A DNA stretch of 64,000 bases from an uncultured Clostridia bacterium. GTDB lineage: Bacteria; Bacillota; Clostridia; Christensenellales; CAG-138. The stretch covers positions 1 through 64,000 of the forward strand of contig CALVWJ010000007.1 of NCBI GenBank assembly GCA_944366945.1, read 5' to 3'. The translations under genes and the position numbers were made by a program. The notes below the pieces were generated by a model. It did not search any database and was not told the DNA's origin. It worked only from the letters and a program-made list of their open reading frames with translations. Position 1 is the first letter of the stretch, and every line of letters begins with the position of its first letter. Of this stretch, positions 40,481 to 53,036 are shown one piece after another.

Positions 40481-40572
40481 GGAGAGATGGCTGAGCTGGT
40501 CGAAGGCGCACGACTGGAAATCGTGTATACCTCATAAGGGTATCGAGGGTTCGAATCCCTCTCTCTCCGCCA
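40481..40572 (+). tRNA. tRNA-Ser(GGA), hybrid of host 5' half and element 3' half
   Basis: Acceptor arms GGAGAGA/TCTCTCC, discriminator G, encoded CCA. The anticodon loop CTGGAAA gives GGA (serine). The long variable arm pairs (ATACC/GGTAT), and the T stem is GAGGG/CCCTC with TTCGAAT loop. The element integrates here: from the anticodon loop on, the sequence is matched by a diverged copy at 52928-52985. Confidence 0.95.
40514..40572 (+). repeat. attL: tRNA-Ser 3' half at the integrase end
   Basis: Starts with the 13-base core CTGGAAATCGTGT shared with attR; also shares the TTCGAAT loop region and TCTCTCCGCCA. The variable arm and T stem differ from attR. Confidence 0.8.
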
Positions 40573-40574
40573 TG

Positions 40575-40601
40575 AAAAAGCCCCTGAGTTAGGGGCTTTT
40601 T
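40575..40601 (+). terminator. tRNA-Ser terminator
   Basis: AAAAAGCCCC / GGGGCTTTTT, 7-base loop, directly after CCA. By its position it was probably brought in by the element. Confidence 0.85.
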
Positions 40602-40654
40602 CTTATACCCGGAAGCATTCTGTTTTCGTACTGCCTACGTGTCAAACTCACAGC

Positions 40655-40676
40655 TTGCTATGGTGTTTGCTATGGT
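40655..40676 (+). repeat. Left arm-type repeats TTGCTATGGT (two copies)
   Basis: Copies at 40655-40664 and 40667-40676, 12 bases apart in phase. The same motif recurs near attR. Likely integrase or excisionase arm sites. Confidence 0.6.
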
Positions 40677-40707
40677 GAGTCTAGGCAGCATCAGAAAACA
40701 TGGCGCA

Positions 40708-42081
40708 TTACTTGGCACCAAACAGGCCTTCCATCACCTTTGCTGGCTGCTGTGCCTTTTCCATAACGGTGATGTAGGTATCCGCCGTAATGCTTATGGT
40801 GCTGTGACCCAGTGTTTCCGAAATCACCTTCAGCGGCACATCCTGTTCCAGTAATAGACTGGCGCAAGTATGCCGAAGGTCGTGCAGTCTAACATCCGGC
40901 AGGGACAGATCTTTCAATATCTTTTTGAACTTGTGATAGACTGTCTGCGGGTTCTTCGGGGAGCCATCCTCATTGCAGCATATCAGGTCGTTATCTTGGT
41001 ATTTTGCGCCCAATAGCAGCTTTTGACTGGCAACCTCTTTCTTTCGGCTCTTAATGCTGTCCAAAACATAGTCCGGCACGTATAGCTTGCGCACGCTGCT
41101 GTCAGTCTTAAGAGCTTTAATACCCCATGTTCGAGGCTGTCCTTTCCGTTCTTCCAGCCCTGTTACCTGCTGAACCACCGCTATGGTTTTTCTCTCAAAA
41201 TCCACATCCTGAAACCTTAGCCCCATAGCTTCACCGCGCCTCAGGCCCGATGACAGCATCAGCAAAACCGGCGTTTCTATGTTGCTTCCCAGTACGCCCT
41301 TTAGCAGTATACTTGCCTGCTCCTTTGTAAGGGGGTTCGGATGGAACCGCTCCCCCTTCGGGCAGACTGCATATACAGCAGGGTTTTTAGTCAACAGGTC
41401 ATCGGCCACCGCATCGTTTAAGGCCTTGCGTATGGTCGCATGGACATAGCGCACACTGGCGGGAGATAAGCCATGCTTTTCCTGTAACTCGAAATAAAAT
41501 CTGGTCAGCATGTGCCTGTCCAGCCGCTGAAGCTTCACACTGCCGATATGGGGCAGAATGTGCGTTTTTATATTGACATCATATCCTCTTGCTGTACCCT
41601 GTGCCAGCGTGTGGCTATGGGTATCAAACCACTGTTGTAAGTATTGGCCAAGGGTCAAGCTGCTGAAATTTTTATAAGTGCCCAGCTCTATCTCAGCCTG
41701 CGCCTTGCGCAGCGCGGCCTTGGCCTCGGCTTCCGTTTTAAAGCCGCCAACCCATTTAGGTTTGCCTACTTTCCCCGTTAAGGGGTCAGGTGGATATAAT
41801 ATAATTGTCCAGGTTTTTCCTCGTTGAAAGGGATTGGTCTTTTCTTTTTTAATGTTTTTAATTGTGTTCTTGTTTGTATCCACGGTCTGCCGTCCTTTCT
41901 CAAACGGTACGGCAGCAAACCCCTGATTATATTCTGTTGCCAAGGTGCGATGAGAAAATTCTATTATATCATGCTGATGTATGTCCATCGGGTCATTTGA
42001 TATTTCCTTCGTCACCTTGGGTAAAATGCGGGTTGCATAGGCGTTTTCTAAACGGGCGGCTGTTACCGACCAATAAGCCAT
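40708..42081 (-). CDS. int: Tyrosine-type site-specific integrase
   Basis: 457 residues. It catalyses strand exchange between tRNA-Ser att sites. An AP2-like arm-binding domain (about 80-135), a SAM-like core-binding domain (about 140-235) and the catalytic domain follow; active-site residues are R281/R282 in SSGLRRGEA, H400-x-x-R403, H426 in LGHS and Y436 in ADTYITV. The start at 42081 has AGAGGGGG ahead and overlaps the excisionase-like gene by 19 bases. The first ~75 residues are unlike typical Tn916-type integrases and may be a lineage-specific extension. Confidence 0.93.
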   Translation of the reverse strand: MAYWSVTAARLENAYATRILPKVTKEISNDPMDIHQHDIIEFSHRTLATEYNQGFAAVPFEKGRQTVDTNKNTIKNIKKEKTNPFQRGKTWTIILYPPDPLTGKVGKPKWVGGFKTEAEAKAALRKAQAEIELGTYKNFSSLTLGQYLQQWFDTHSHTLAQGTARGYDVNIKTHILPHIGSVKLQRLDRHMLTRFYFELQEKHGLSPASVRYVHATIRKALNDAVADDLLTKNPAVYAVCPKGERFHPNPLTKEQASILLKGVLGSNIETPVLLMLSSGLRRGEAMGLRFQDVDFERKTIAVVQQVTGLEERKGQPRTWGIKALKTDSSVRKLYVPDYVLDSIKSRKKEVASQKLLLGAKYQDNDLICCNEDGSPKNPQTVYHKFKKILKDLSLPDVRLHDLRHTCASLLLEQDVPLKVISETLGHSTISITADTYITVMEKAQQPAKVMEGLFGAK

Positions 42082-42233
42082 GATTCAACCCCCTCTTTGG
42101 GAATTCGTATCGCCTTTCCGATGCGCAAAACCGGAAACGGCGGGTCGTTGATTAGTTTGTAAACCGCCGTGCGGCTGATGCCCAACAGGGTTTGAAGTTC
42201 CTTGGGGGTGTATGTAATCTTTTCGTTGTTCAT
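42063..42233 (-). CDS. Excisionase-like helix-turn-helix protein (56 aa)
   Basis: Reads MNNEKITYTPKELQTLLG... with the HTH_17/MerR-like pattern (TPKELQTLLGISRTAVYKLI, RIGKAIRIPKEGVESWL) of element-borne excisionases. It lies directly ahead of the integrase and overlaps its start by 19 bases, so translation is coupled. It probably bends DNA at the ends for excision. Only 56 residues. Confidence 0.8.
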   Translation of the reverse strand: MNNEKITYTPKELQTLLGISRTAVYKLINDPPFPVLRIGKAIRIPKEGVESWLIGR

Positions 42234-42245
42234 GCTTTAAGCCTC

Positions 42246-44666
42246 CTACTCAAAATCTCCAACATCTCCATCATTTGCATCTGTTGGAGCATCTTTAAAG
42301 CGATAGTTCACCAACATGTTACGAGGAGAATTCTGGGTTCTGGGAGGGCGCATAAACCTGACTTCTCCTCTCCTGCTAAGCTCCGCAAAAAAGGCTTTTT
42401 GGTTCATTCCATCTTCTCCATGAGCCGCACACCATTCTTTATATTTAACATGAGCTTCCCCGGTAGAGGCTGCGCAGCCGTCAGCTCGCTCTAAGTATTC
42501 GTCAAAGAACGCCTGAAATCTATTGCTGGTTCTGGCATACGATTGTGTAGCTTCGCGCACAGCTCGAGGCGTATCAAGTCCTTGCTCCATTAACAGCCTA
42601 TAACCTTCCACAGCCCAGTTCAGAACTGCACTTAAATTTTCGGGCTGCATCAGCTCCTGTTTCAGCCCCATATCCCGCGCTGCCATATCGAAATGGCGGG
42701 AGAATGGGATGACATACACACGGTCAGAGGCAAATAGAGTTTGGTCTGTAACTTCTGGCAGGTCATTCACACTGAAAAACAGCTTGAACGCGCTCTTATA
42801 CTCAAAGGAGTTTTCATGCAGATACCGCGCTACCAGCGTGTCGTTGCCCGTAATCGTTTTTAGCAACGATGCGTGCAATGTCATTTTTTTATCAGGCTCA
42901 GATGCGCTGACCAGTCTGGCTCCCGCAAGCCTTGCGATATCTTCATTTGGTGCGCTGCCATTATACCTGTGCTTTTGAGCAAAGCTGCTGGGGCTTGCAG
43001 CTTTTGCATAGTCGCCAAAGGTTTTGAGTAAAACCTCCATGGCCGTACCTTTGCCGTTTCTTGTAGTCATTCCAAACAGTATAAAAAAGCATTCAAACCG
43101 GGTGTCACCGCTCAGCGCATAACCGCAGGCCCTTTGAAAGAAATTCTCAAGCTCTTTGTCTCCTTGAAAAATCTCTTCCAGAAACCTTGTCCATCTGGGA
43201 CTTGTGGCGTTTGGATTATATACCGCCTCTGTTTTCTGCGTAAGGTAGTCAAATGCACTATGCTCCCTGAACTCCATTGTTTGAAGGTCGAGCGTGCCGT
43301 TAGGGGTATTTACAAGATAAGGGGCGTCGTCGAACTCCCGCATATTCATGGAGCGGACAGTTGTCGCATCCTTAATTACAGTTTCCCGGTATGAGCGGCT
43401 TTGCCACTTCTTAATGGTAGCCAGACTGGCTTTTATGGATTCTTCTGGAAGAATATGCTTGTGAACCTCCAACAACCTTGCAAGCTGCTTACATTCAGAC
43501 ATAATACCTACCCCCTGATGGTCTTTCTTCCAAACGCTGCCATCGTATATGAGCCAGATGTTTCGGGCAGGAATAAAACGGGCTTTTTCCTTTACAAAAT
43601 CGGCTAGCAACTCTCCGCTGCCAATATGTGAAAAGCCATATAAGGGGTTGCCGCCTATCAAATAGTCAGTTATCAGTTTTTCTATGATCTTATCTTCGGT
43701 TATAGCGGCATCGGTATTTTCGTGCTTAGGCATAGGTGCTAAGCTGTTACTCTCCTTCTTTGGAGAATATACTTCGTGACATCCTGCTATTGCCTTTGTA
43801 ATAACATCCGCTCCATAGGTAGATGAGCCTCGCCTTGAATCCCACTTATCCCGCATCAGCCCAGACCGGCGGAACAGGCTATCCATACGCTCAGCATCCC
43901 TGCACGTCCAAAACGCCAAGTGGCTGCACAGTGCCAAATCAGCCTCGCTTTGAGAGGGATAGCCGGTTATATCGCCAGCCCACAGCGCGGAGAACTGCGT
44001 CCCGTTTTTTGCGGCCTGAGCTTTTTCAATAAGCTTATCGTCAGAACACTCTATTTTGGAAGAAAGCAACTTGAGAGCTGGTTTATGGCACTCATGCTTG
44101 TCCGTTCCGCGCCGCATGTATTTTTCCAAAACCTCCGTTAATGCTTCGTCCCGCTGAGCCAGCTCTCCCGTTCCCTCTAATCGGTTGCCGGTTAGGGTCA
44201 CGAATTTGCTGGTTGCCTTCGCAACATAGACCTCAAGGCCGGATTTTTGATTATGGATATAGAACCGTTCCTTATCATAGAGAAAGTCAGAGGTTCGGAA
44301 TATAATACGGATACCCTTGCCGCTGGGGCTAAGCTCGGTATAGCTGTCCATGCAGTCGATAATATCTCTTGCCATATTGCTAAGCCTTCCAACTTCATCA
44401 ACACAATGGTCGATATCAATAGCCGATATGCCGTCGAAGACGCCCAGACCGATGCCGCTATAATCGGAAACAGCGCTTACAGCTTCATCAAAGCTGCAAA
44501 AGCTCTCCACCGCATTTGACCTTGCGAGCAATCCGGTGCGGGGGTTATAGGGTATTTTTGTAGTGCGGCCATTGTGGGTCTCATAGCGCCATGTGCAGAA
44601 GCGGCCATGCTGCTTGAGGTAGTCGGGAATATTGTGTGTCCTTGCGAACACATCATATGGTTTCAT
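42246..44666 (-). CDS. Primase / SF3 helicase (D5-type phage-plasmid replication protein)
   Basis: 806 residues. An N-terminal primase-polymerase-like domain has GIGLGVFDGISAIDIDHCVD (metal-binding D-x-D at about 84-86) and SPSGKGIRI. A middle primase C-terminal/PriCT region follows. The C-terminal SF3 helicase has Walker A GMTTRNGKGT (532-541), Walker B-like RLVSASEP and sensor FFSVNDLPEV, with a DNA-binding tail. Such proteins replicate P4-like satellites, PICIs and related elements. It lies 12 bases ahead of the excisionase-like gene on the same strand. Intact. Confidence 0.9.
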   Translation of the reverse strand: MKPYDVFARTHNIPDYLKQHGRFCTWRYETHNGRTTKIPYNPRTGLLARSNAVESFCSFDEAVSAVSDYSGIGLGVFDGISAIDIDHCVDEVGRLSNMARDIIDCMDSYTELSPSGKGIRIIFRTSDFLYDKERFYIHNQKSGLEVYVAKATSKFVTLTGNRLEGTGELAQRDEALTEVLEKYMRRGTDKHECHKPALKLLSSKIECSDDKLIEKAQAAKNGTQFSALWAGDITGYPSQSEADLALCSHLAFWTCRDAERMDSLFRRSGLMRDKWDSRRGSSTYGADVITKAIAGCHEVYSPKKESNSLAPMPKHENTDAAITEDKIIEKLITDYLIGGNPLYGFSHIGSGELLADFVKEKARFIPARNIWLIYDGSVWKKDHQGVGIMSECKQLARLLEVHKHILPEESIKASLATIKKWQSRSYRETVIKDATTVRSMNMREFDDAPYLVNTPNGTLDLQTMEFREHSAFDYLTQKTEAVYNPNATSPRWTRFLEEIFQGDKELENFFQRACGYALSGDTRFECFFILFGMTTRNGKGTAMEVLLKTFGDYAKAASPSSFAQKHRYNGSAPNEDIARLAGARLVSASEPDKKMTLHASLLKTITGNDTLVARYLHENSFEYKSAFKLFFSVNDLPEVTDQTLFASDRVYVIPFSRHFDMAARDMGLKQELMQPENLSAVLNWAVEGYRLLMEQGLDTPRAVREATQSYARTSNRFQAFFDEYLERADGCAASTGEAHVKYKEWCAAHGEDGMNQKAFFAELSRRGEVRFMRPPRTQNSPRNMLVNYRFKDAPTDANDGDVGDFE

Positions 44667-44719
44667 ATTGTTTTTGTCCTCCTTAAATTAGGAATTACAG
44701 CCGGCTGCTTTTGAAATTA

Positions 44720-44748
44720 ATTATAGTCGGTGTTAAAATACCTGTCTA
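44720..44748 (-). promoter_or_regulatory. Promoter of the replication-integration operon
   Basis: Minus-strand TAGACA (44743-44748), 17-base spacer, TATAAT (44720-44725), divergent from the XRE promoter. Confidence 0.6.
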
Positions 44749-44750
44749 AA

Positions 44751-44795
44751 TTGCCGAAATTATATTTTTATGGTAATATGGTTACTAAATATTAC
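44751..44795 (+). promoter_or_regulatory. Promoter and operator of the XRE regulator
   Basis: TTGCCG (44751-44756), 17-base spacer, TAATAT (44774-44779). A dyad GTAATAT-N9-ATATTAC (44773-44795) covers the -10 and start, fitting autorepression by the downstream HTH protein. Confidence 0.6.
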
Positions 44796-44811
44796 TACAC
44801 AAGGAGTCAAC

Positions 44812-45717
44812 ATGAGTTCAAGTGATACCAAATATCTGATTTACGATAAAGATGAGATTGCGAAGCGGCTAAAGGAGCAGCGCAAACTGACAGGACATAG
44901 CCAAGCGCAGCTGGCGAAGAAAATAGACGCTTTAATCGGCAAGGCTGCGAATCAAAATGGGCTGTGCATGGATAAACATGCAGGAGTCGAATATGTATCC
45001 GGATGGGAAAACAACACCCGGGCTATAACTCTGAATGTCCTCATGGCGTATTCAAAAATATATAATGTATCACTCGACTTTCTTATGGGGAGAACTCCGG
45101 ATTGGAACCCTGAAAACCATGATATTAAAGAAAAAACTGGCCTGAGCGATAAGAGTTTAGTTGCTCTTGAGTCTATAGGTGTATACACGGAAGATGACTA
45201 TAAAGATACAATAGATTCTCTGCCCAAAAAACGATTGCTGCCAGATGAATATTTTGCCGCACGAATTGGTAAACCTTTGCCCGAAAAAGAGCGAGTTTCA
45301 ATCGCATACGATTTTGTAAATTCATTTATCAATTATATGCTTTCAAGTCGCAAGCTCTGGCTCGATTCTGCATTCCTACTATTGCAAGCGGCCAATAATA
45401 TCCAACGCAGCAGCGAAACGAGGTACCAGCTTGCTTCAAACGGTGAGAAAATTCTTCAAAATGTATCATCTACCAACGATGCAGCTCTCACTTCTGAAAT
45501 ACGCAGTCACATAAGTAACCTTAACGAGTTTATCAGTGAGGCCGATGTTGACACAGATATTTATATATATATGGTGAAAGAAAGAATCACAGTAAAATTC
45601 AAAGAACTGCTGGATGCATATATTATAGATTATTTAAATAGAAGCTACAGTTTTAAAGAGTATCCTTCAAAGAGCCGAAATAAAGGCTTAAATATCGAAA
45701 AATCGTCGGATAGCTGA
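44812..45717 (+). CDS. XRE-family regulator of the element
   Basis: 301 residues. AAGGAG lies six bases ahead of the ATG. Residues about 10-95 form an HTH (IAKRLKEQRKLTGHSQAQLAKKIDALIG..., YVSGWENNTRAITLNVLMAYSKIYNVSLDFLMG) with an insertion between helices. The C-terminal 200 residues are helical and unrecognised. Divergent from the primase-integrase operon, it is the likely master repressor. Its 3' end overlaps the convergent recombinase gene by 65 bases. Confidence 0.8.
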   Translation: MSSSDTKYLIYDKDEIAKRLKEQRKLTGHSQAQLAKKIDALIGKAANQNGLCMDKHAGVEYVSGWENNTRAITLNVLMAYSKIYNVSLDFLMGRTPDWNPENHDIKEKTGLSDKSLVALESIGVYTEDDYKDTIDSLPKKRLLPDEYFAARIGKPLPEKERVSIAYDFVNSFINYMLSSRKLWLDSAFLLLQAANNIQRSSETRYQLASNGEKILQNVSSTNDAALTSEIRSHISNLNEFISEADVDTDIYIYMVKERITVKFKELLDAYIIDYLNRSYSFKEYPSKSRNKGLNIEKSSDS

Positions 45718-46261
45718 CCCTGCACAGTTGTGCTAGAGCTTTCTTGGTAAGCTGTCCTTGTTCGTATAGTGGAACATATTTTAGGAATACACTCGGCAAA
45801 TCATCTTTGCCCATGACAGGCCGCCCAATATTCTTGCCCTTGGCTTTGGCGGCAGCCATACCGCTCCGTACACGTGAGCGTATAAGCTGTAGCTCCAATT
45901 CCGAAAATACGCCAGCCATCTGTAAAAACGCTGCTGTCATGGGGTCAATCTGCCCTTGAGTACAGTCAATCGTCAGGCTGCCCAGTATCACCAGCCGAAG
46001 TTTTTTGGCCTGAATCTGTTCAATGGTCTCGCATAGTTGTCGGGTACTTCGGCTTAAGCGGGAAACCTCAGTAACAATTATAGTATCACCATCCTGTGCT
46101 TTATCTTGTAGCAAGGCATTTAACTCTGCTTTCTGGGCTGCGTCCCCGTGTTCGAATTCCCCAATTAATACATCAGCGCCGGCCGCTTTTAATTCTCGCA
46201 GCTGGCGCGTCACATCCTGCTTGTTTTCATCTGTACTGCATCGTGCATAACCGAATTTCAT
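45653..46261 (-). CDS. Serine recombinase (resolvase/invertase family)
   Basis: 202 residues. The N-terminus MKFGYARCSTDENKQDVTRQL contains the catalytic serine; the conserved VTEVSRLSRS and the E helix (LELQLIRSRVRSGMAAAKAKGKNIGRP) follow, and a C-terminal HTH (LTKKALAQLCRVSYPTIFRYL) is present. Small enzymes of this type resolve or invert DNA segments. No paired inversion repeats are obvious around it. It overlaps the convergent XRE gene by 65 bases. It is a second recombinase in an element that already has a tyrosine integrase. Confidence 0.9.
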   Translation of the reverse strand: MKFGYARCSTDENKQDVTRQLRELKAAGADVLIGEFEHGDAAQKAELNALLQDKAQDGDTIIVTEVSRLSRSTRQLCETIEQIQAKKLRLVILGSLTIDCTQGQIDPMTAAFLQMAGVFSELELQLIRSRVRSGMAAAKAKGKNIGRPVMGKDDLPSVFLKYVPLYEQGQLTKKALAQLCRVSYPTIFRYLSLYFGSLKDTL

Positions 46262-46381
46262 AGCGTACCCCCTCTTTATGAAGAATATTATAGTATATAA
46301 ATAAAAGGGTGCCGAGGCGCATTTTATACAAAAATAGCCAAATTTACTATGATTTTTCCGTATTATCCTGTCACAAATAAT

Positions 46382-46411
46382 TATAAAAGAAAGGAAATGC
46401 TTTCTTTTATA
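46382..46411. repeat. Perfect 12-bp inverted repeat
   Basis: TATAAAAGAAAG / CTTTCTTTTATA with a 6-base loop, 120 bases upstream of the recombinase start. It could be an RNA hairpin or a protein site (possible recombinase target). Confidence 0.4.
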
Positions 46412-46425
46412 CGCCTGCTCCGATG

Positions 46426-46448
46426 AAAAAGGAGCGGTCAGCTGCTCC
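46426..46448 (-). terminator. Terminator after the 76-residue gene
   Basis: GGAGC / GCTCC stem, 8-base loop, then TTTTT on the minus strand; 35 bases past the stop at 46484. Confidence 0.6.
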
Positions 46449-46483
46449 GCCCCTTCAATACTATATTTAAATACAATGCACTG

Positions 46484-46714
46484 TTAATATTCTTCCGGTT
46501 CGTATATATTGAGTATCTTTATTACAGAAGCCAGAAGCAGCTTCGCATAATCATAAAGGGATATTTCTATCATGCCTTCTCCATATCCTTGTTCTTCCAT
46601 CGTGGCGAAGAGGCTTTCCAATACCTTTTTCCCGGTCGCCGCTTTGGGCAGCTTTGCCTGCTTTGATTCTTTAACTATTAACGGAGTCTTTTGTTCACGT
46701 TCTATTTTCAACAT
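46484..46714 (-). CDS. Small hypothetical protein (76 aa)
   Basis: 76 residues, basic N-terminal half (IEREQKTPLIVKESKQAKLPKAATGKKV) and acidic helical C-terminal half. No family recognised. It stands alone between the kinase gene and the recombinase, with a terminator behind it. Codon use suits the element. Could be a small regulator, which is a guess. Confidence 0.5.
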   Translation of the reverse strand: MLKIEREQKTPLIVKESKQAKLPKAATGKKVLESLFATMEEQGYGEGMIEISLYDYAKLLLASVIKILNIYEPEEY

Positions 46715-47067
46715 ATCGTTTTACCTCGTTATTTAATTATTCAAGGTGGCAGTTCCGTATATTGTCTGTGAGGTAAAACAAGTCTTTTGCCTACAATGTA
46801 ACGGCTATCCCTGCTATAGCCTGCAAGGGATATGCCGCAGGTACATTCCTGCCGTACTCTATAGTTTAATTCTAGTAGACCCTATTCGAAAGAACAAGGC
46901 TTTTGTATCCCTCGATAATCAAAGCACCGCAGAGTAAGCAAAACAGCGGGAATTAGGGGACTGATACGCTTAACGCTCTTTTCTCAATGGAAAGCCCATA
47001 TACGGCTTATAGCTGTATATGGGCTGAATAAGGACATTTTTATGGGGAATCGAAACAAGTTTTCTGA
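46715..47067. other. Intergenic region with a hairpin
   Basis: About 350 bases. A long hairpin (AGCCCATATAC / GTATATGGGCT, 46993-47024) lies 44 bases after the kinase stop and may terminate it. A 63-codon plus frame (46746-46937) lacks a ribosome site. Confidence 0.5.
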
Positions 47068-48687
47068 TCAGGGCACTTGCAGCGTATATATCCCGCTGTA
47101 TTCCCTGCCGTTGTATTCGCCCTCATAGCAGATATGATATTCCCCCGGCATTGTGACCGTGAGCATATCTCCCTCGATACTCGCTCCTTTCGTCTCCTGC
47201 AAAGTGTAGGCCCATCGCTGTGGCGTGTGCTCCATGCACCAACATCCCCGATCGTCCACCGGCAGCTCAATATGGATTTGTCTGGCGGCAGGAAGTTGGG
47301 AAAACTCATTGGATGCAGGTTCAAAAACGGAGAACGGGAATTCAGCGAGGGGCCAGCCGTGGAGGCGTTCGTCCCCATCCTCAAAGATCAACTCACAACA
47401 GCATACGTTTCGTACGTCTTCCGCTTTGGGAACCACGCATATCCAAAAACCAAGTTTAGAATTGTTTCCATGGTAAGAGCTTCGGGCTTCAATGCGGTAA
47501 TCTCCCGGTTCATGCACGATTAGTAAATTGTCTTTAAGAGTGACATCACCAAGCGTTTCACCCGTTGCCCCAGTGCCTGCGTCACTCCACTGAGAGAACT
47601 TTAGCTGAACTTCGGGTTCATCGTGCACTTCGGCTCTGCATTCGCTGTCGTCAACCCGCCAGTAAAGCTCGATCGGGATTTCGAGGGATGTGCCCTCCTC
47701 ATAGCCATGCACATAGTGCGGTGAAAATGCAAACGCGTCTTTTTCGCCCTGTGCAATCGCCAATGTGCAGGTGCAGGGGATCGCGGCAGCCGCAGCACCG
47801 GGAGCAGCGCTTTCTTGGGACGGTAGCTGTTCGGAAGCAGGCGTCTGCACCGGAACCGATGCAGGCGCGCCCGCATTCTCCGCCCGCGGCAGCAGAACAA
47901 GGCAAAGAATAGCCGCAGCAGCAATAGCGCCCATCAGGAAGCTGCCCAATCCTGCCCATATACGCTCCTTCCGTGCAAGCCTTTGCAGCGCCCTTTGAAG
48001 GGATTTCACGCTTTGGTAGCGTTTCTTTACGTCAAGATTTGTACACTTATCGATAACAGCCCACAGCTTCCCTCCGCACCGCTCCATTTTTTCATATGGC
48101 TTTCCGGTACGCGCTTCGTACAGGGTAACGCCCAGTGCATAGATGTCCGACCGCATATCAGATTGACCAAACCCGTACTGCTCCGGCGGTGCATAGCCCT
48201 GCGTTCCAAGCTGAACCGTGTCCTTCTTTGCGGCAGAGGAATACTGCCTCGCCGCGCCGAAATCAATAAGCACATAGCGGCCAAGATCGGATAAAATGAT
48301 GTTATCCGGCTTGACATCCCTATGGATAATGGGTGGTTTCGCCCCATGTAGGCATTCCAATGCCTCGCACAAATCTTTGGCCAAAACCATCGTTTCTTTG
48401 TTATCCAGCGTTCTGCCGACTTCAAGAATGCTGCGGAGGCTTCTGCCGCTAACATATTCCTCTAATACCCATACCGCATCCCCTGATTCCTGAACGGACA
48501 GGATGCGGGGCAGCACCGGGCTCTTCATCTCGGCGACTGCTTCATAGATTGGGCGCAATGAGGCGGGGAGCAGCTTTTTTACTGCAAGCATCCCATTTTG
48601 ACGGTTTTTTACAAGATATACCCGTCCTTCCTTCAATACCGCCACTTCTTCGTAAAGCCACTGGTGAAATTCATTACGCATATCCAT
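47068..48687 (-). CDS. Membrane Ser/Thr protein kinase with outer domain
   Basis: 539 residues. An N-terminal Hanks-type kinase (about 10-240) has the invariant lysine in LAVKKL, HRDVKPDN at 122-129, DFG at 142-144 and APPEQ at 166-170; the glycine loop is short. One membrane helix (about 246-266) is followed by a proline/alanine linker and some 230 outer residues with Ig-like repeats (YWRVDDSECRAEVHDEPEVQLKFSQWSD..., PGEYHICYEGEYNG). The overall plan is that of PknB-type receptors but without PASTA repeats. It is transcribed from a promoter divergent to the 139-residue partner. Carried by the mobile element. Confidence 0.9.
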   Translation of the reverse strand: MDMRNEFHQWLYEEVAVLKEGRVYLVKNRQNGMLAVKKLLPASLRPIYEAVAEMKSPVLPRILSVQESGDAVWVLEEYVSGRSLRSILEVGRTLDNKETMVLAKDLCEALECLHGAKPPIIHRDVKPDNIILSDLGRYVLIDFGAARQYSSAAKKDTVQLGTQGYAPPEQYGFGQSDMRSDIYALGVTLYEARTGKPYEKMERCGGKLWAVIDKCTNLDVKKRYQSVKSLQRALQRLARKERIWAGLGSFLMGAIAAAAILCLVLLPRAENAGAPASVPVQTPASEQLPSQESAAPGAAAAAIPCTCTLAIAQGEKDAFAFSPHYVHGYEEGTSLEIPIELYWRVDDSECRAEVHDEPEVQLKFSQWSDAGTGATGETLGDVTLKDNLLIVHEPGDYRIEARSSYHGNNSKLGFWICVVPKAEDVRNVCCCELIFEDGDERLHGWPLAEFPFSVFEPASNEFSQLPAARQIHIELPVDDRGCWCMEHTPQRWAYTLQETKGASIEGDMLTVTMPGEYHICYEGEYNGREYSGIYTLQVP

Positions 48688-48726
48688 AGGTTGCGCTCCT
48701 TCGATAGGTTCCCTGTTTATGAGATA

Positions 48727-48755
48727 AATATAGCATGGTATAATATAAATGACAA
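48727..48755 (-). promoter_or_regulatory. Promoter of the kinase gene
   Basis: Minus-strand TTGTCA (48750-48755), 17-base spacer, TATATT (48727-48732). A plus-strand TATAAT (48739-48744) in the same 87-base gap may serve the partner gene. Confidence 0.6.
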
Positions 48756-48773
48756 CACATACGGAGGCTGCTC

Positions 48774-49193
48774 ATGTATTCCAAAACCACGGGAGATCTG
48801 CTTAAAACGCTGCTGAGCACAGACGAGTATTCCCAGTTTCAGGCGTTAAAAGGCAACAGCGTCGTGTCCCTTGCAGAGCATCTTGAGACTTTGCTGAATC
48901 AAAAGCGAACCTCTAAGGCGGAGGTGATTTACAGGGCGAAACTGGACACGGTCTACGGGTATCAGATTTTCAACGGCACACGCAAACCCTCACGCGATAA
49001 GCTTTTGCAGCTTGCCTTTGGGTTTCCCCTTACATACAAGGAAACGTTGACGCTGCTCAGAATTGCCGGGGTGGGCAGCCTTTACGTTCGCCGCAGACGG
49101 GACAGCATCATTATATTCGCCCTGAACAAGGGCTTCTCCCTGGAACAGCTCAATGCGTTGCTGGAGCAGGAGGAGGAAGCGTATTTGGTGTAA
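48774..49193 (+). CDS. Small DNA-binding-like protein paired with the kinase
   Basis: 139 residues. The middle (AEVIYRAKLDTVYGYQIFNGTRKPSRDKLLQLAFGFPLTYKETLTLL) has the shape of an HTH variant in which helices 2-3 and the following helices resemble XRE proteins. Genes of this family are commonly found beside Hanks kinases in Firmicutes. ACGGAGG precedes the ATG. It is divergent from the kinase across an 87-base control region, suggesting that kinase and regulator act together. Confidence 0.7.
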   Translation: MYSKTTGDLLKTLLSTDEYSQFQALKGNSVVSLAEHLETLLNQKRTSKAEVIYRAKLDTVYGYQIFNGTRKPSRDKLLQLAFGFPLTYKETLTLLRIAGVGSLYVRRRRDSIIIFALNKGFSLEQLNALLEQEEEAYLV

Positions 49194-49198
49194 AGCAT

Positions 49199-49226
49199 AG
49201 CCGGCGCTGATTTATCAGCACCGGCT
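49199..49226 (-). terminator. Hairpin between convergent partner and surface-protein genes
   Basis: AGCCGG-T-GCTGA / TCAGC-G-CCGGCT on the minus strand pairs fully with one G-U; about 30 bases past the surface-protein stop. Confidence 0.6.
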
Positions 49227-49256
49227 TGCTTTGTCCCTACGGGAATTCCTGCAATA

Positions 49257-52200
49257 TCAGTTCGACTCACTTTTGCCTTTGTATGCTGCAATCAAAATAA
49301 CGGCTGCGGCAAACATGAAAGCGGCGCACGGCAACAAGAAATATCCCTGGCTGTCACCTGTTTGCGGCGGTGCAATGCTTGTTCCGTCTTCTCCAACACT
49401 TCCGTTGTTCGGTGCAACAACCTCAATTCCGGAACCAGTACTTCCTAATGAGCCGGTATTATCCGAATCCGGTTTTTCCCCAGGATTGGGAGTAATTCCG
49501 GAACTTTTATAGGAAACGATAATCGGGCTAAGGTGGCTCACCTCTATTCTTAGCCCATAAGGGGTTGCCTCTGCCATGAGCGTTTCAAACTCAGTATGCG
49601 TTTCATCAGAGTAATGATGAACGGTAAATACTGTTTCCTGAGCAATCGAAAGCTCATAGGTCATTCCTTCCGGATAATTCAGGTAAATCGTATGTGCCGC
49701 GCTTTCGTTTCCAGTCGCAGTAAGATCACTGAGCGGCACTTTTTCGCCTTGTTTGTTCACACAGTCGATCAGATAATATACCCCATTCCCATCTGTTTCC
49801 TGTGCAGGGATTTCCGTTTTCAGCATATAGCCCTCCGCGTTGTCATAACTGCCAACCAGGTAAGGTGCGTTTGAATTCTCTGCTGGCTCACTTTGAATTT
49901 CCTCGAATTCGGTTTTGTACATCAGGTTGTTTATCGCAAGGCAAAGATACTCGCAGGACATTAAATCTCCCATGTCATCATACCATGCAAACAAAACACC
50001 GTACTCTCTTGCATTGCTGAGATATACTGTAATTCCATCGACGGTGACTTTTTTGCACAGTTCCAAACATACTCCGGTGCCAACACTGGATGGAAATTCT
50101 TGACTGTTGAGTACCAGTTCAAGCTGCTCCTTAGCATAATCCGCCCCGTACTGGCTAAAATCATTGATGGATAACCATTTGAAAGACGCCGCGTACTCCG
50201 GAGGCTCGATCTTTGGCGAAAGCTCCTGCTTTTCAAGCAATTCCTTGGAGGGCAAATTGTTTTCATCGTATTCGACAGTTAAAAAGCCATCGCTGATTGT
50301 CAACTTGGAACTGCTGCCGTCAAAGTCTTCGGATTTGACCGGGCTATATGTGGAGATGCCGATGCGCTCATCCGGAACCGGTTCAGCAATAAAGTCCACC
50401 CACGTACCTTCCATGGAAATTGGCACGAGCACACGTGTAATCATTTCGGAAGAAAGCTCTTCGTCATCTTCCGTTAACCATGTCAACCGTATTTTATCGG
50501 TGATTTTATAATCAATCAGCTCTGTTTCAGAATCACCTTTGGTATACGGAACATTGATATCGAAATAGAGGGAAGCGCCGTCCGAATCCAGCGTTTGGGG
50601 CGCTTCTTCATCAAGTACCACTTTCGCTGCACCTTCGGGTGCAAACACTCGGATTACGATATCTTTGTTGACATTTTCCAGCAGCTTTTCCGAGTCTTTC
50701 AGCTTAAATGTGGCTGTGCCACTGTCGTAGCTACAATCCATCCCTTCATAGTTTCCGGGATTCAGCACAATGCGTGAGTCTTCGGGTACAGCGTTTGGCA
50801 ATGCGATAGCTTGCCCCTGCTCTGCCTGATAAATGCAGACATGGAGTATTTTTTGATAAAGAAGTTCGCCGTTCGCACCATAAAAATCAAAATAATAGGT
50901 TTTGAGAAAGTCTTCGGGCAAAAGGAACTCGTTCCCTGATACAGTTAATGTGTCGGCTATTATGCAACGGAATTCAATTGGGTCGCCGGAGTTGCTTTCA
51001 CCTCCGTCATTCCTTCTGTCATACCAACGGATATTTGATACATCCGTCAGTTCGTTTGGGTCAAACGAAACCGTCACTTTTGCAGCTACACTGTTGTCAA
51101 CACCGTAATTTTGATATGCCTTTTGCCATGCGGCATTATCGTTTTTTGCAACAGTAGCATTCACTTGGCCGTTTACGGATTTATCGGTCACGCTAAGCCC
51201 ACAGTAGTCCACCTTTACGTTGGAAATACTTAAAAGGTTGTCTTCATTGTATGGTTTCACATAGATGGGCAGCTTCTCCGTAACATTTCCTTCCGCACTC
51301 TCCCATGTGATGTCGACCTCAATCAACCGGCCTTCGAGGAAAGTCCATTGATTGCTTTTCGTTTCACTACATTGTACGCCAAGCTGTATCGTTCCTTCGT
51401 TGACCGAAAAATGTTCAACAGGTCTGTCATCCGTAGGTATGCTGGCAGAATAAGTCGTATATTTTCTATCAGTGGGTGCTGCAATCTTGAAGGTTATCAT
51501 GCCTTCATCGCCTTCTTGCTGATCACGAACCATAGCATCAAAGGCCTCTTTGCTTGAAAAACCGACTTCGATCCGATTTTGTGCGGTGTTTTTCGCAAGG
51601 GATAATCCATCGGCACTTGTCTCCAACTCAACCCGGTAGAGAACAGGTGTGACCCCGGTTTCAGGAGATACTATGGACAATTCTAAAGAGCCATCGACAT
51701 CATAGTTATTACAATGAATCGGGGTATCGCCAGCAGTAAGAACTAAGGAACCATCACCCGTTAGCGCTATTTTTCCTTCGTGATAAAGCGCCCAAAAGTC
51801 AGAAGTTACGGAATTATCGCCTTGTACTTCAAGGCTGTCTGTATTAATGCCGATACCCCATGCGGCTTTGATTTGCGCATTATTCAACGTCACCTTACCG
51901 AGGGAGGATACCGCATAAAAATCTCCGCCATTATACTTGCTTACATCAAGCTTGCCCTTTATCGTTATATCCCCTTCAGCATACACAGCATAGCCAAATC
52001 CAGCCTGACTTAAATCCTCGGCTCCAAATTTTATCAAGAGACTTTTCTGAATATCCAGCGTAGCTCCTGCCGGCAATTTGATGCCGTAATACTTTTCGCT
52101 ATTTGATGTTCGGTTTATGGCTATTAGCAGGTCATCCGTTACTGTGAGCGTTTTTGACTCAGCATCCCAATTCCAGCCATCACCGCTTTGGTCTCCAATA

Positions 52201-52310
52201 GAACTGATACAATCGATCGTTCCAGTATGACTTGCAGCGAAAACTGGAACGCAGGCCATCATTGACATGAGCAATGCCAAGGCTGTGGCAAGCAGCTTTT
52301 TCATCTTCAT
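49257..52310 (-). CDS. Large sortase-anchored surface protein of the element
   Basis: 1017 residues. A signal peptide (1-25, ...CVPVFA) opens the protein. Residues about 35-230 are a repetitive beta-helix-like carbohydrate-type domain (WNWDAESKTLTVTDDLLI, GDITIKGKLDVSKYNGG, GKVTLNNAQIKAA). The middle contains several Ig-like segments. The C-terminus has PPQTGD at 981-986, a hydrophobic helix and the tail KGKSESN: a sortase sorting signal with P in place of L. It would be covalently attached to the wall. As element cargo beside a receptor kinase it may be an adhesin or a sensed partner. Confidence 0.85.
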   Translation of the reverse strand: MKMKKLLATALALLMSMMACVPVFAASHTGTIDCISSIGDQSGDGWNWDAESKTLTVTDDLLIAINRTSNSEKYYGIKLPAGATLDIQKSLLIKFGAEDLSQAGFGYAVYAEGDITIKGKLDVSKYNGGDFYAVSSLGKVTLNNAQIKAAWGIGINTDSLEVQGDNSVTSDFWALYHEGKIALTGDGSLVLTAGDTPIHCNNYDVDGSLELSIVSPETGVTPVLYRVELETSADGLSLAKNTAQNRIEVGFSSKEAFDAMVRDQQEGDEGMITFKIAAPTDRKYTTYSASIPTDDRPVEHFSVNEGTIQLGVQCSETKSNQWTFLEGRLIEVDITWESAEGNVTEKLPIYVKPYNEDNLLSISNVKVDYCGLSVTDKSVNGQVNATVAKNDNAAWQKAYQNYGVDNSVAAKVTVSFDPNELTDVSNIRWYDRRNDGGESNSGDPIEFRCIIADTLTVSGNEFLLPEDFLKTYYFDFYGANGELLYQKILHVCIYQAEQGQAIALPNAVPEDSRIVLNPGNYEGMDCSYDSGTATFKLKDSEKLLENVNKDIVIRVFAPEGAAKVVLDEEAPQTLDSDGASLYFDINVPYTKGDSETELIDYKITDKIRLTWLTEDDEELSSEMITRVLVPISMEGTWVDFIAEPVPDERIGISTYSPVKSEDFDGSSSKLTISDGFLTVEYDENNLPSKELLEKQELSPKIEPPEYAASFKWLSINDFSQYGADYAKEQLELVLNSQEFPSSVGTGVCLELCKKVTVDGITVYLSNAREYGVLFAWYDDMGDLMSCEYLCLAINNLMYKTEFEEIQSEPAENSNAPYLVGSYDNAEGYMLKTEIPAQETDGNGVYYLIDCVNKQGEKVPLSDLTATGNESAAHTIYLNYPEGMTYELSIAQETVFTVHHYSDETHTEFETLMAEATPYGLRIEVSHLSPIIVSYKSSGITPNPGEKPDSDNTGSLGSTGSGIEVVAPNNGSVGEDGTSIAPPQTGDSQGYFLLPCAAFMFAAAVILIAAYKGKSESN

Positions 52311-52473
52311 CTCTCAAAATCTCCTCCGCTATTAACTCAAAGATTGGCTTTTCATTCCCGAATAATAAGCCTTTGGTTAAGTTAGTTTATCACATGCGTT
52401 TAGATTTTTGTTATGCTGGCAGCATAATATAGCAGCTTCCAAAAACTTCATCTTTAGAAGGTGTGCTTTGAGT

Positions 52474-52713
52474 ATGAAAATATACTGGGACGGAAAATCA
52501 AAGAACATAATAGGGCCAAGGGTTCGCATGTATCGTGAGCAGGCTAAGTTGTCTCAACGTGCGCTGGCAGAAAAGCTCCAACTGATGGGCTATGATTTTT
52601 CTGACCTGACCATACTGCGAATAGAAAGCGGCAAACGTTTCGTGCCCGATTATGAGGTGAAGGCATTGGCAAAGTTTTTTGGTATTTCCTATCAGGATTT
52701 GCTGGATGAATAA
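52474..52713 (+). CDS. XRE-family HTH protein at the right end of the element
   Basis: 79 residues. A compact HTH (RVRMYREQAKLSQRALAEKLQLMGYDFSDLTILRIESGKR, split by a short loop) fills the protein. The start at 52474 (MKIYWDGKSKN) is the best match to the domain; AGAAGG lies eleven bases ahead. It is the last gene before attR. It could regulate cargo or the integration module from the far side. Confidence 0.7.
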   Translation: MKIYWDGKSKNIIGPRVRMYREQAKLSQRALAEKLQLMGYDFSDLTILRIESGKRFVPDYEVKALAKFFGISYQDLLDE

Positions 52714-52799
52714 GAACCCCGCAGACATTTCTGATGTTGAAGATGTTGGAGTTTATTCCATAAATAGTATAAAATTTCAGAGTTGCTGCCGTCCAAATT

Positions 52800-52870
52800 T
52801 TGCTATGGTTTTTGCTATGGTAAACTTGAGATTCGCTATGGTTATTTGGCGTTTTTCAGTGTGCTATGAT
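52800..52870 (+). repeat. Right arm-type repeats TTGCTATGGT
   Basis: Copies at 52800-52809 and 52812-52821, with variants at 52833-52842 (TCGCTATGGT) and 52861-52870 (GTGCTATGAT). The first two have the same 12-base phase as the pair near attL. Sequence lies 58-128 bases inside attR. Confidence 0.6.
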
Positions 52871-52927
52871 GTTAAAAAACCAGGAATTTAGGGGATTTAC
52901 GCAACACGCTGCATCACGGTATGGGTT

Positions 52928-52985
52928 CTGGAAATCGTGTTTACGGGGAACCGTAACAAGGGTTCGAATCCCTTTCTCTCCGCCA
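52928..52985 (+). repeat. attR: displaced tRNA-Ser 3' half
   Basis: Begins with core CTGGAAATCGTGT, then a well-paired variable arm (TTACGG/CCGTAA) and T stem (AAGGG/CCCTT), ending TCTCTCCGCCA. No 5' half precedes it. Probably the host's original tRNA 3' half. Confidence 0.85.
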
Positions 52986-52987
52986 AA

Positions 52988-53036
52988 GAAAAGCCGCAAT
53001 TTTGATACAATGGATATCAAAATTGCGGTTTTCTTT
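52988..53036 (+). terminator. Terminator behind attR (original tRNA-Ser terminator)
   Basis: About 19-bp stem (AAAAGCCGCAATTTTGATA against its complement), then TTTTC TTTT. It directly follows the displaced tRNA half. Confidence 0.85.

Follow-up and report, generated by a model that had tools for sequence, protein, structure and literature searches.

In the Islander report (PMC4383910), 2083 of 3919 islands occupy an anticodon-centred tRNA site (an 'A' site) and a displaced fragment is described; typically, an intact tRNA gene is accompanied by a same-orientation 3' fragment, a tyrosine integrase gene lies in between, lengths range from 2 to 200 kb and the core falls in the anticodon loop. 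The same layout was found in an uncultured Clostridia bacterium (GenBank assembly GCA_944366945.1; 42 contigs, 2.4 Mb, 94% complete), within the first 64,000 nucleotides of contig CALVWJ010000007.1, the stretch analysed here and hereafter called the window. An element of 12,414 bp with an internal tyrosine integrase, hence within the Islander size range, separates a tRNA-Ser(GGA) gene from a displaced second copy of its 3' half, which lies downstream of the intact tRNA, in the same orientation, and reaches the tRNA 3' end as in the Islander definition. Yet, genes carrying such islands are usually restored, whereas in the window the two halves share a 13-bp core and, outside it, agree at only 35 of 46 aligned columns (10 substitutions and one gap). 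It is very probable that the element integrated by crossover in this shared core and that its own diverged 3' half and terminator replaced the previous half of the host.

Imperfect tRNA halves have been described elsewhere. According to PMC10865867, mycobacteriophage Boilgate (attachment sites attP/attB-4) likewise yields a hybrid tRNA at its left attachment site (attL) from an imperfectly matching phage 3' half, and this hybrid was predicted to be functional; its 43-bp core contains five single-base differences, versus 10 substitutions and a length change in the window, where paired stems were exchanged as units. The same paper covers tRNA-dependent lysogeny (e.g. phage Fionnbharth), which resembles our case in its very short core (about 10 bp versus 13 bp). 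However, no working tRNA is rebuilt there, whereas the window gene is predicted to be rebuilt at attL, and the phage supplies a complete tRNA of matching isotype, whereas ARAGORN detected no tRNA gene inside our element (40573-52927). A review of archaeal integrases (PMC8371274) presents an intact tRNA as reconstituted and names the conversion of tRNA-Glu to tRNA-Asp by SSVK1 as rare; integration altered the tRNA sequence there too, but with a change of amino-acid identity, while Ser(GGA) was kept in the window. The Caldiarchaeum tRNA-Thr with an element-derived intron (PMC3293823) differs in being archaeal, in involving a 5' fragment and in gaining an intron. PMC11476347 and PMC8074189 gave general background only. 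No literature report of an arm-level exchange as diverged as this one was found, which is no proof of absence. Inherited attP/attB mismatches have already been published; the kind of event is known, and the locus in the window is a strongly diverged case of it.

An earlier note on this DNA had described a 13-base core common to both ends, and our analysis recovered it (CTGGAAATCGTGT; Table 1). These are the only two copies in the whole assembly, and each consists of the anticodon loop (7 bases), the adjoining 3' strand of its stem (5 bases) and one additional base. Beyond the core, the attL half (46 nt) displays variable arm ATACC..GGTAT and T stem GAGGG/CCCTC, and the half at the right attachment site (attR, 45 nt) displays TTACGG..CCGTAA and AAGGG/CCCTT. 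The claim that both stems differ between the halves while each pairs with itself thus held at the sequence level, as did the assignment of a terminator to each half, since both downstream hairpins are predicted to fold strongly. The differences affect the first T-stem base pair and the variable arm together with its loop and flank; acceptor strand TCTCTCC, discriminator G and CCA are common to both. Self-pairing is general for working tRNA halves: complete acceptor stems (7/7) and T stems (5/5) were present in each of the 76 intact tRNA-Ser(GGA) genes that were parsed among 77 loci (one copy remained unparsed and three displaced halves were kept separate). ARAGORN called a single tRNA-Ser(GGA), at attL, where the gene is therefore predicted to be rebuilt, and made no call at the attR copy. 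A further tandem half within the window was ruled out, as GGTTCGAATCCC (at most one mismatch) occurs just twice.

Comparison with relatives revealed distinct affinities for the two halves. When the 5' half and core were rejoined to the displaced half, the resulting 91-nt tRNA was called as tRNA-Ser by ARAGORN and proved identical (91/91) to the uninterrupted tRNA-Ser of G020, which belongs to a different genus within the family. The attL half, for its part, matches in 46 of 46 bases the uninterrupted tRNA-Ser of G011, G033 and G073, which are all the listed genomes of genus g8 (the G033 gene was pieced together from two contigs overlapping at tRNA-Ser). The 5' half is of the GGCTGAG type, as in all three congeners found, and GGCCGAG occurs in the three g8 genomes; the present gene is thus composed of two parts with affinities to different genera. 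These congeners (G001, G002 and G004) possess an uninterrupted orthologous tRNA-Ser with the same left neighbours, namely a VCA0040-like (undecaprenyl phosphate translocase-like) gene and an L,D-transpeptidase gene. In all three, the T stem is AAGGG/CCCTT and the variable loop contains GGAA, as at attR, and none carries the attL-type half, whose presence in uninterrupted sister-strain genes the earlier note had listed as refuting its proposal. The attR-type half with its terminator, which the note expected in sister strains, was recovered in these congeners as regards T stem and loop, but not as regards variable stem and terminator. The fourth congener (G003) was uninformative, since a pattern search found neither core nor tRNA-Ser 5' half in it. 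Loci with the core outside a tRNA or truncated, as well as one unparsed G083 copy bearing a partial duplication, were excluded from this genus comparison.

With the rebuilt target matching G020 and the attL half matching g8 throughout, the proposal that the element carries its own tRNA 3' half plus terminator and crossed over in the anticodon loop is well supported. Crossover, element origin of the attL half and direction of the swap are what we infer: because recombination is conservative, the half beyond attR should be the chromosome's and the attL half the element's, and the sequence agrees.

Conservation of the 3' half differs strongly between genera: a single sequence is shared by all 11 g10 genomes, and several variable-arm types occur among genomes of genus g174.

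To find displaced halves in other genomes, a pattern of core plus downstream T arm was applied to two overlapping samples: 396 genomes from the order, 107 of which matched, and 393 from the class (completeness of at least 90 requested), 110 of which matched. Fourteen genomes, the window genome (G000) included, displayed at least two halves on one contig; those with matches on different contigs only were excluded (G033, whose double match was taken as assembly overlap, G536, G557, G655, G727 and G532). In 13 of these 14, one copy belongs to an intact tRNA-Ser and the remainder is displaced, and in G554 both halves are displaced, with no tRNA on the stretch fetched. Nine genomes harbour identical halves, the displaced half of G733 differs by a 4-base loss, and differing self-paired halves were observed in G000, G188, G554 and G485, always with the same acceptor strand. 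One variable-stem pair is exchanged in G188 and in G554, one G-U pair occurs in the B type of G485 and in both G554 halves, and only in G000 does the T stem differ as well. Intact and displaced halves also differ in G557, located on different contigs. In G485 (L314 and L315; C1:4443000-4475000 of a 4.8-Mb contig), an intact half of type A is followed by displaced A, B, B and B over 30 kb. If the outermost half is the oldest under the same rule, type A would have replaced type B here, and the array is likely a layered record of half replacement.

Whole intervals were examined in G000, G188, G237, G249, G398, G485, G825, G468 and G554; about 1 kb around each half was examined in G733, G761, G466, G504 and G533. 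Integrase domains were detected in the elements of G188, G237 and G398, an integrase-like open reading frame was read by eye in G249 (L151), and a loose integrase set gave three matches in the G485 array, one in G825 and none in the fetched stretches of G468 and G554. ARAGORN reported one tRNA-Ser in G237, the other half being displaced; its tRNA-Ser(AGA) call over the displaced half of G825 was taken as spurious. Four loci (L149 to L152) correspond to very small tRNA-Ser elements, with 2.4-4.5 kb between halves and the integrase frame at the attR side, opposite to the window element.

The half pattern was also present in 27 IMG/VR contigs, 16 of which showed no tRNA-Ser at the half according to ARAGORN (L305, beginning three bases before the core, is ambiguous among them, and some contigs look by eye like mutual copies). 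In all 15 parsable ones (L297 is cut off) the T stem is complete (5/5) and the variable stem has at least five pairs, G-U counted. L311 and L293 each carry a convergent integrase match that lies 3' of the half, as in the window, and ends 143 and 147 bp, respectively, past the first base of the core; as no tRNA 5' half precedes the 3' half, these loci look like attP. Likewise, contig C73 of G036 carries a 3' half without tRNA 5' half beside an integrase fragment. Exact patterns of the attL-type and attR-type halves had no match in IMG/VR, a search by which near records may be missed.

Several observations weigh against replacement of the host's previous half by the element. The congeners' variable stems and terminators are unlike attR (the stems are of two types among the three congeners themselves), and the congeners lack the right flank (from 53 kb) next to their tRNA-Ser. 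In a search of eight genomes, its NUDIX and low-molecular-weight phosphatase genes had matches in all four congeners, each on a different contig from that of tRNA-Ser (which was located in three of the four), so that the right half of the empty site was not recovered by synteny. Neither a same-species empty site nor an excised circle of the window element was seen. Among integrases found in context, the nearest ones share 39-40% identity over most of their length, apart from the G036 fragment (51% over 70 residues). In G188, it is the intact half, not the displaced one, that is identical to the half of sister G205, implying that a displaced half need not resemble its genus. Finally, the integrase match in viral contigs L289, L290 and L310 lies on the other side of the orphan half, unlike in the window, and elements are thus not all built alike.

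Some of these points would fit a displaced half that is itself the relic of an earlier swap, attR then showing a previous rather than a lineage-native half. Its type occurs in none of the three congeners, yet the identical half is present in two other genera (G009 and G020) and in another family (G169), so that it may have come from such a swap; serial integration is plain in G485. This alternative is nonetheless judged rather improbable: T stem and loop class of attR agree with the genus, ordinary change could yield the attR type given two stem types among three congeners, and no third T arm of this type lies within the 64-kb window, beyond which none was sought. The g8-like identity of the attL half, together with a G073 terminator similar by eye, could alternatively mean that the element brought an ordinary matching half, later altered by recombination with a g8-like tRNA gene. 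Conservative recombination requires one step, while this history demands an extra event ending at the core, and self-paired halves without tRNA 5' half adjoin integrases in viral contigs, which makes it quite unlikely. Displaced halves are free of selection, as the loss in G733 illustrates, but drift of attR from an initially identical half is scarcely credible, since drift would not produce compensated changes and the attR half is fully paired and identical over its 45 nt to part of the uninterrupted genes of G020, G009 and G169. The fragmented state of the assembly raises the prospect of a chimera or an unrelated tRNA remnant; both element ends are on one contig, however, core, orientation, integrase and repeats fit a single element, and at least two halves on one contig recur in 13 other genomes, leaving this a very slim chance. 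Replacement of the previous host half by that of the element thus remains the preferred explanation.

The assembly contains 36 tRNAs, each with an assigned anticodon. A complete second tRNA-Ser that might explain the attR copy, a possibility raised beforehand, was ruled out: no second tRNA-Ser(GGA) occurs among the 36, and the sole other tRNA-Ser is CGA. The latter differs in variable arm and T stem, which also rules out a source of the attL half within its own genome. No tRNA-Ser with TGA or GCT anticodon was found, indicating that the assembly is incomplete for tRNA-Ser. Hybrid and rebuilt tRNAs were both accepted by ARAGORN, with predicted energies of -32.7 versus -32.4 kcal/mol, and the hybrid folds only moderately better than shuffled sequence (z -1.72); it is predicted to fold normally. 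As the sole tRNA-Ser(GGA) among the 36 of this nearly complete assembly, the hybrid would be the one on which the cell depends.

Mechanistically, the 12.4-kb element would enter the sole tRNA-Ser(GGA) gene found by crossover within the anticodon core, its own 3' half and terminator taking the place of the host's and the previous half ending up at the far end. The integrase would need identity within the core only, which is probably enough for exchange. The remainder of the half would be free to differ as long as it folds, since the variable and the T arm both form self-contained hairpins inside it. The part 3' of the core could then be regarded as a cassette of two closed hairpins and one acceptor-stem strand. 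Two helices join the 5' and 3' halves: the acceptor stem, with the same 3' strand (TCTCTCC) in both 3' halves, and the anticodon stem, the 3' strand of which belongs to the core. A cassette of foreign origin should be functional provided that its acceptor strand fits. Acceptor stems vary among genera (GGAGAGA for g1 and g8, GCAGAGA for all tabulated g2 and g14 genomes) and could, for that reason, limit the hosts that tolerate the element.

Table 1. Features of the integrated element and its attachment sites (window coordinates)
Feature	Position	Strand	Basis
Host 5' half of tRNA-Ser(GGA)	40481..40513	+	Acceptor 5' strand, D arm, anticodon-stem 5' strand; ARAGORN
attL copy of 13-bp crossover core	40514..40526	+	Exact core match
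3' half in present use, presumably element-borne	40527..40572	+	Variable arm, T arm, acceptor 3' strand, CCA
Terminator hairpin after attL half, presumably arrived with it	40573..40602	+	-19.8 kcal/mol, z -4.73
Two arm-type repeats TTTGCTATGGT, putative P' side of attP	40654..40676	+	Pattern search
Tyrosine integrase, 457 aa	40708..42081	-	Pfam Phage_integrase 2.1e-24, Arm-DNA-bind_4 4.9e-6; PHROG integrase 2.3e-72
Primase/helicase, NrS-1 HBD and D5_N domains	42246..44666	-	Pfam/PHROG domain matches
HTH repressor-like protein	44770..45717	+	Pfam/PHROG
Serine resolvase/invertase	45653..46261	-	Pfam/PHROG
Ser/Thr protein kinase-like cargo	47068..48687	-	Pfam/PHROG
1017-aa protein, no Pfam/PHROG match at E 0.001	49257..52310	-	PPQTGD and hydrophobic C-terminus
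Small HTH (helix-turn-helix) regulator	52408..52713	+	Pfam/PHROG
Three arm-type repeats TTTGCTATGGT, putative P side of attP	52799..52842	+	Pattern search
attR copy of core	52928..52940	+	Exact core match
Displaced 3' half, presumably the previous host half	52941..52985	+	91/91 identity to G020 when rejoined
Displaced-half terminator hairpin	52990..53032	+	-21.5 kcal/mol, z -5.47

The integrase gene is convergent with the tRNA and its C-terminus faces attL. Copies of TTTGCTATGGT with at most one mismatch start at 40654 and 40666 at one element end and at 52799, 52811 and 52832 at the other. The window contains seven such sites, five of them at the att ends, versus 1.26 expected, a count reached in none of 100 shuffles. 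In the excised circle, these repeats would flank the core on both sides, like arm-type integrase sites. By eye, the 1017-aa product appears cell-surface-like; it is carried as cargo alongside the kinase-like protein.

A search of genome contigs with the window integrase gave three distant loci. In viral contigs, a single-protein search found no match, and an alignment-based search reached identities of up to 36% among its best 80 matches; a loose tRNA-Ser half pattern hit two of these 80 loci (L245 and L248), neither of which is a tRNA by eye. Integrase matches in phage and plasmid collections were all below 60% identity. The primase had matches in 9 of 103 genomes of the family, own genome included.

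Other tRNA-Ser loci displayed related arrangements. In G074 (L133, C44), a tRNA-Ser(GGA) with another 3' half (GTGCCCC..GGCAC, GAGAG/CTCTC) is followed by a convergent integrase 39% identical to that of the window, and the same half occurs as an orphan in G029 (L047). About 100 bp after an intact tRNA-Ser, contig C73 of G016 (L046) carries a sequence resembling the post-half region of G036 (TTTTCTACCATTCTTCTACCC); this contig has no match to the window integrase and is possibly the scar of a lost element. In G126 (L126, C61), a tRNA-Ser 5' half with core directly precedes a complete tRNA-Ser with a differing anticodon stem (GCGCGA/TCGCGT), and an integrase lies nearby. Locus L116 (G083 C37:15725-15797) shows a 60-bp partial tandem duplication of tRNA-Ser 5' half plus core.

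Transfer RNA genes are usually assumed to descend vertically and to be restored unchanged when elements integrate. At this locus, the displaced half and its replacement are both preserved, each exactly matching a different lineage, and the replacement of tRNA halves thereby becomes open to direct testing. How far the two halves have diverged, their exact agreement with other lineages and the array in G485 make this locus a good test case, not a new kind of system. We tentatively propose, as a possibility on the doubtful side of even, that such elements act as vectors of tRNA 3'-half modules: a core of about 13 bp would suffice, variable and T arms of tRNA-Ser could be overwritten across genera, arrays would form a layered record and the acceptor stem would serve as a compatibility lock limiting the surviving hosts. 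Island finders based on fragment similarity could miss more diverged fragments, and the present case suggests that an integrase acting at an anticodon site may require very little identity (13 bp).

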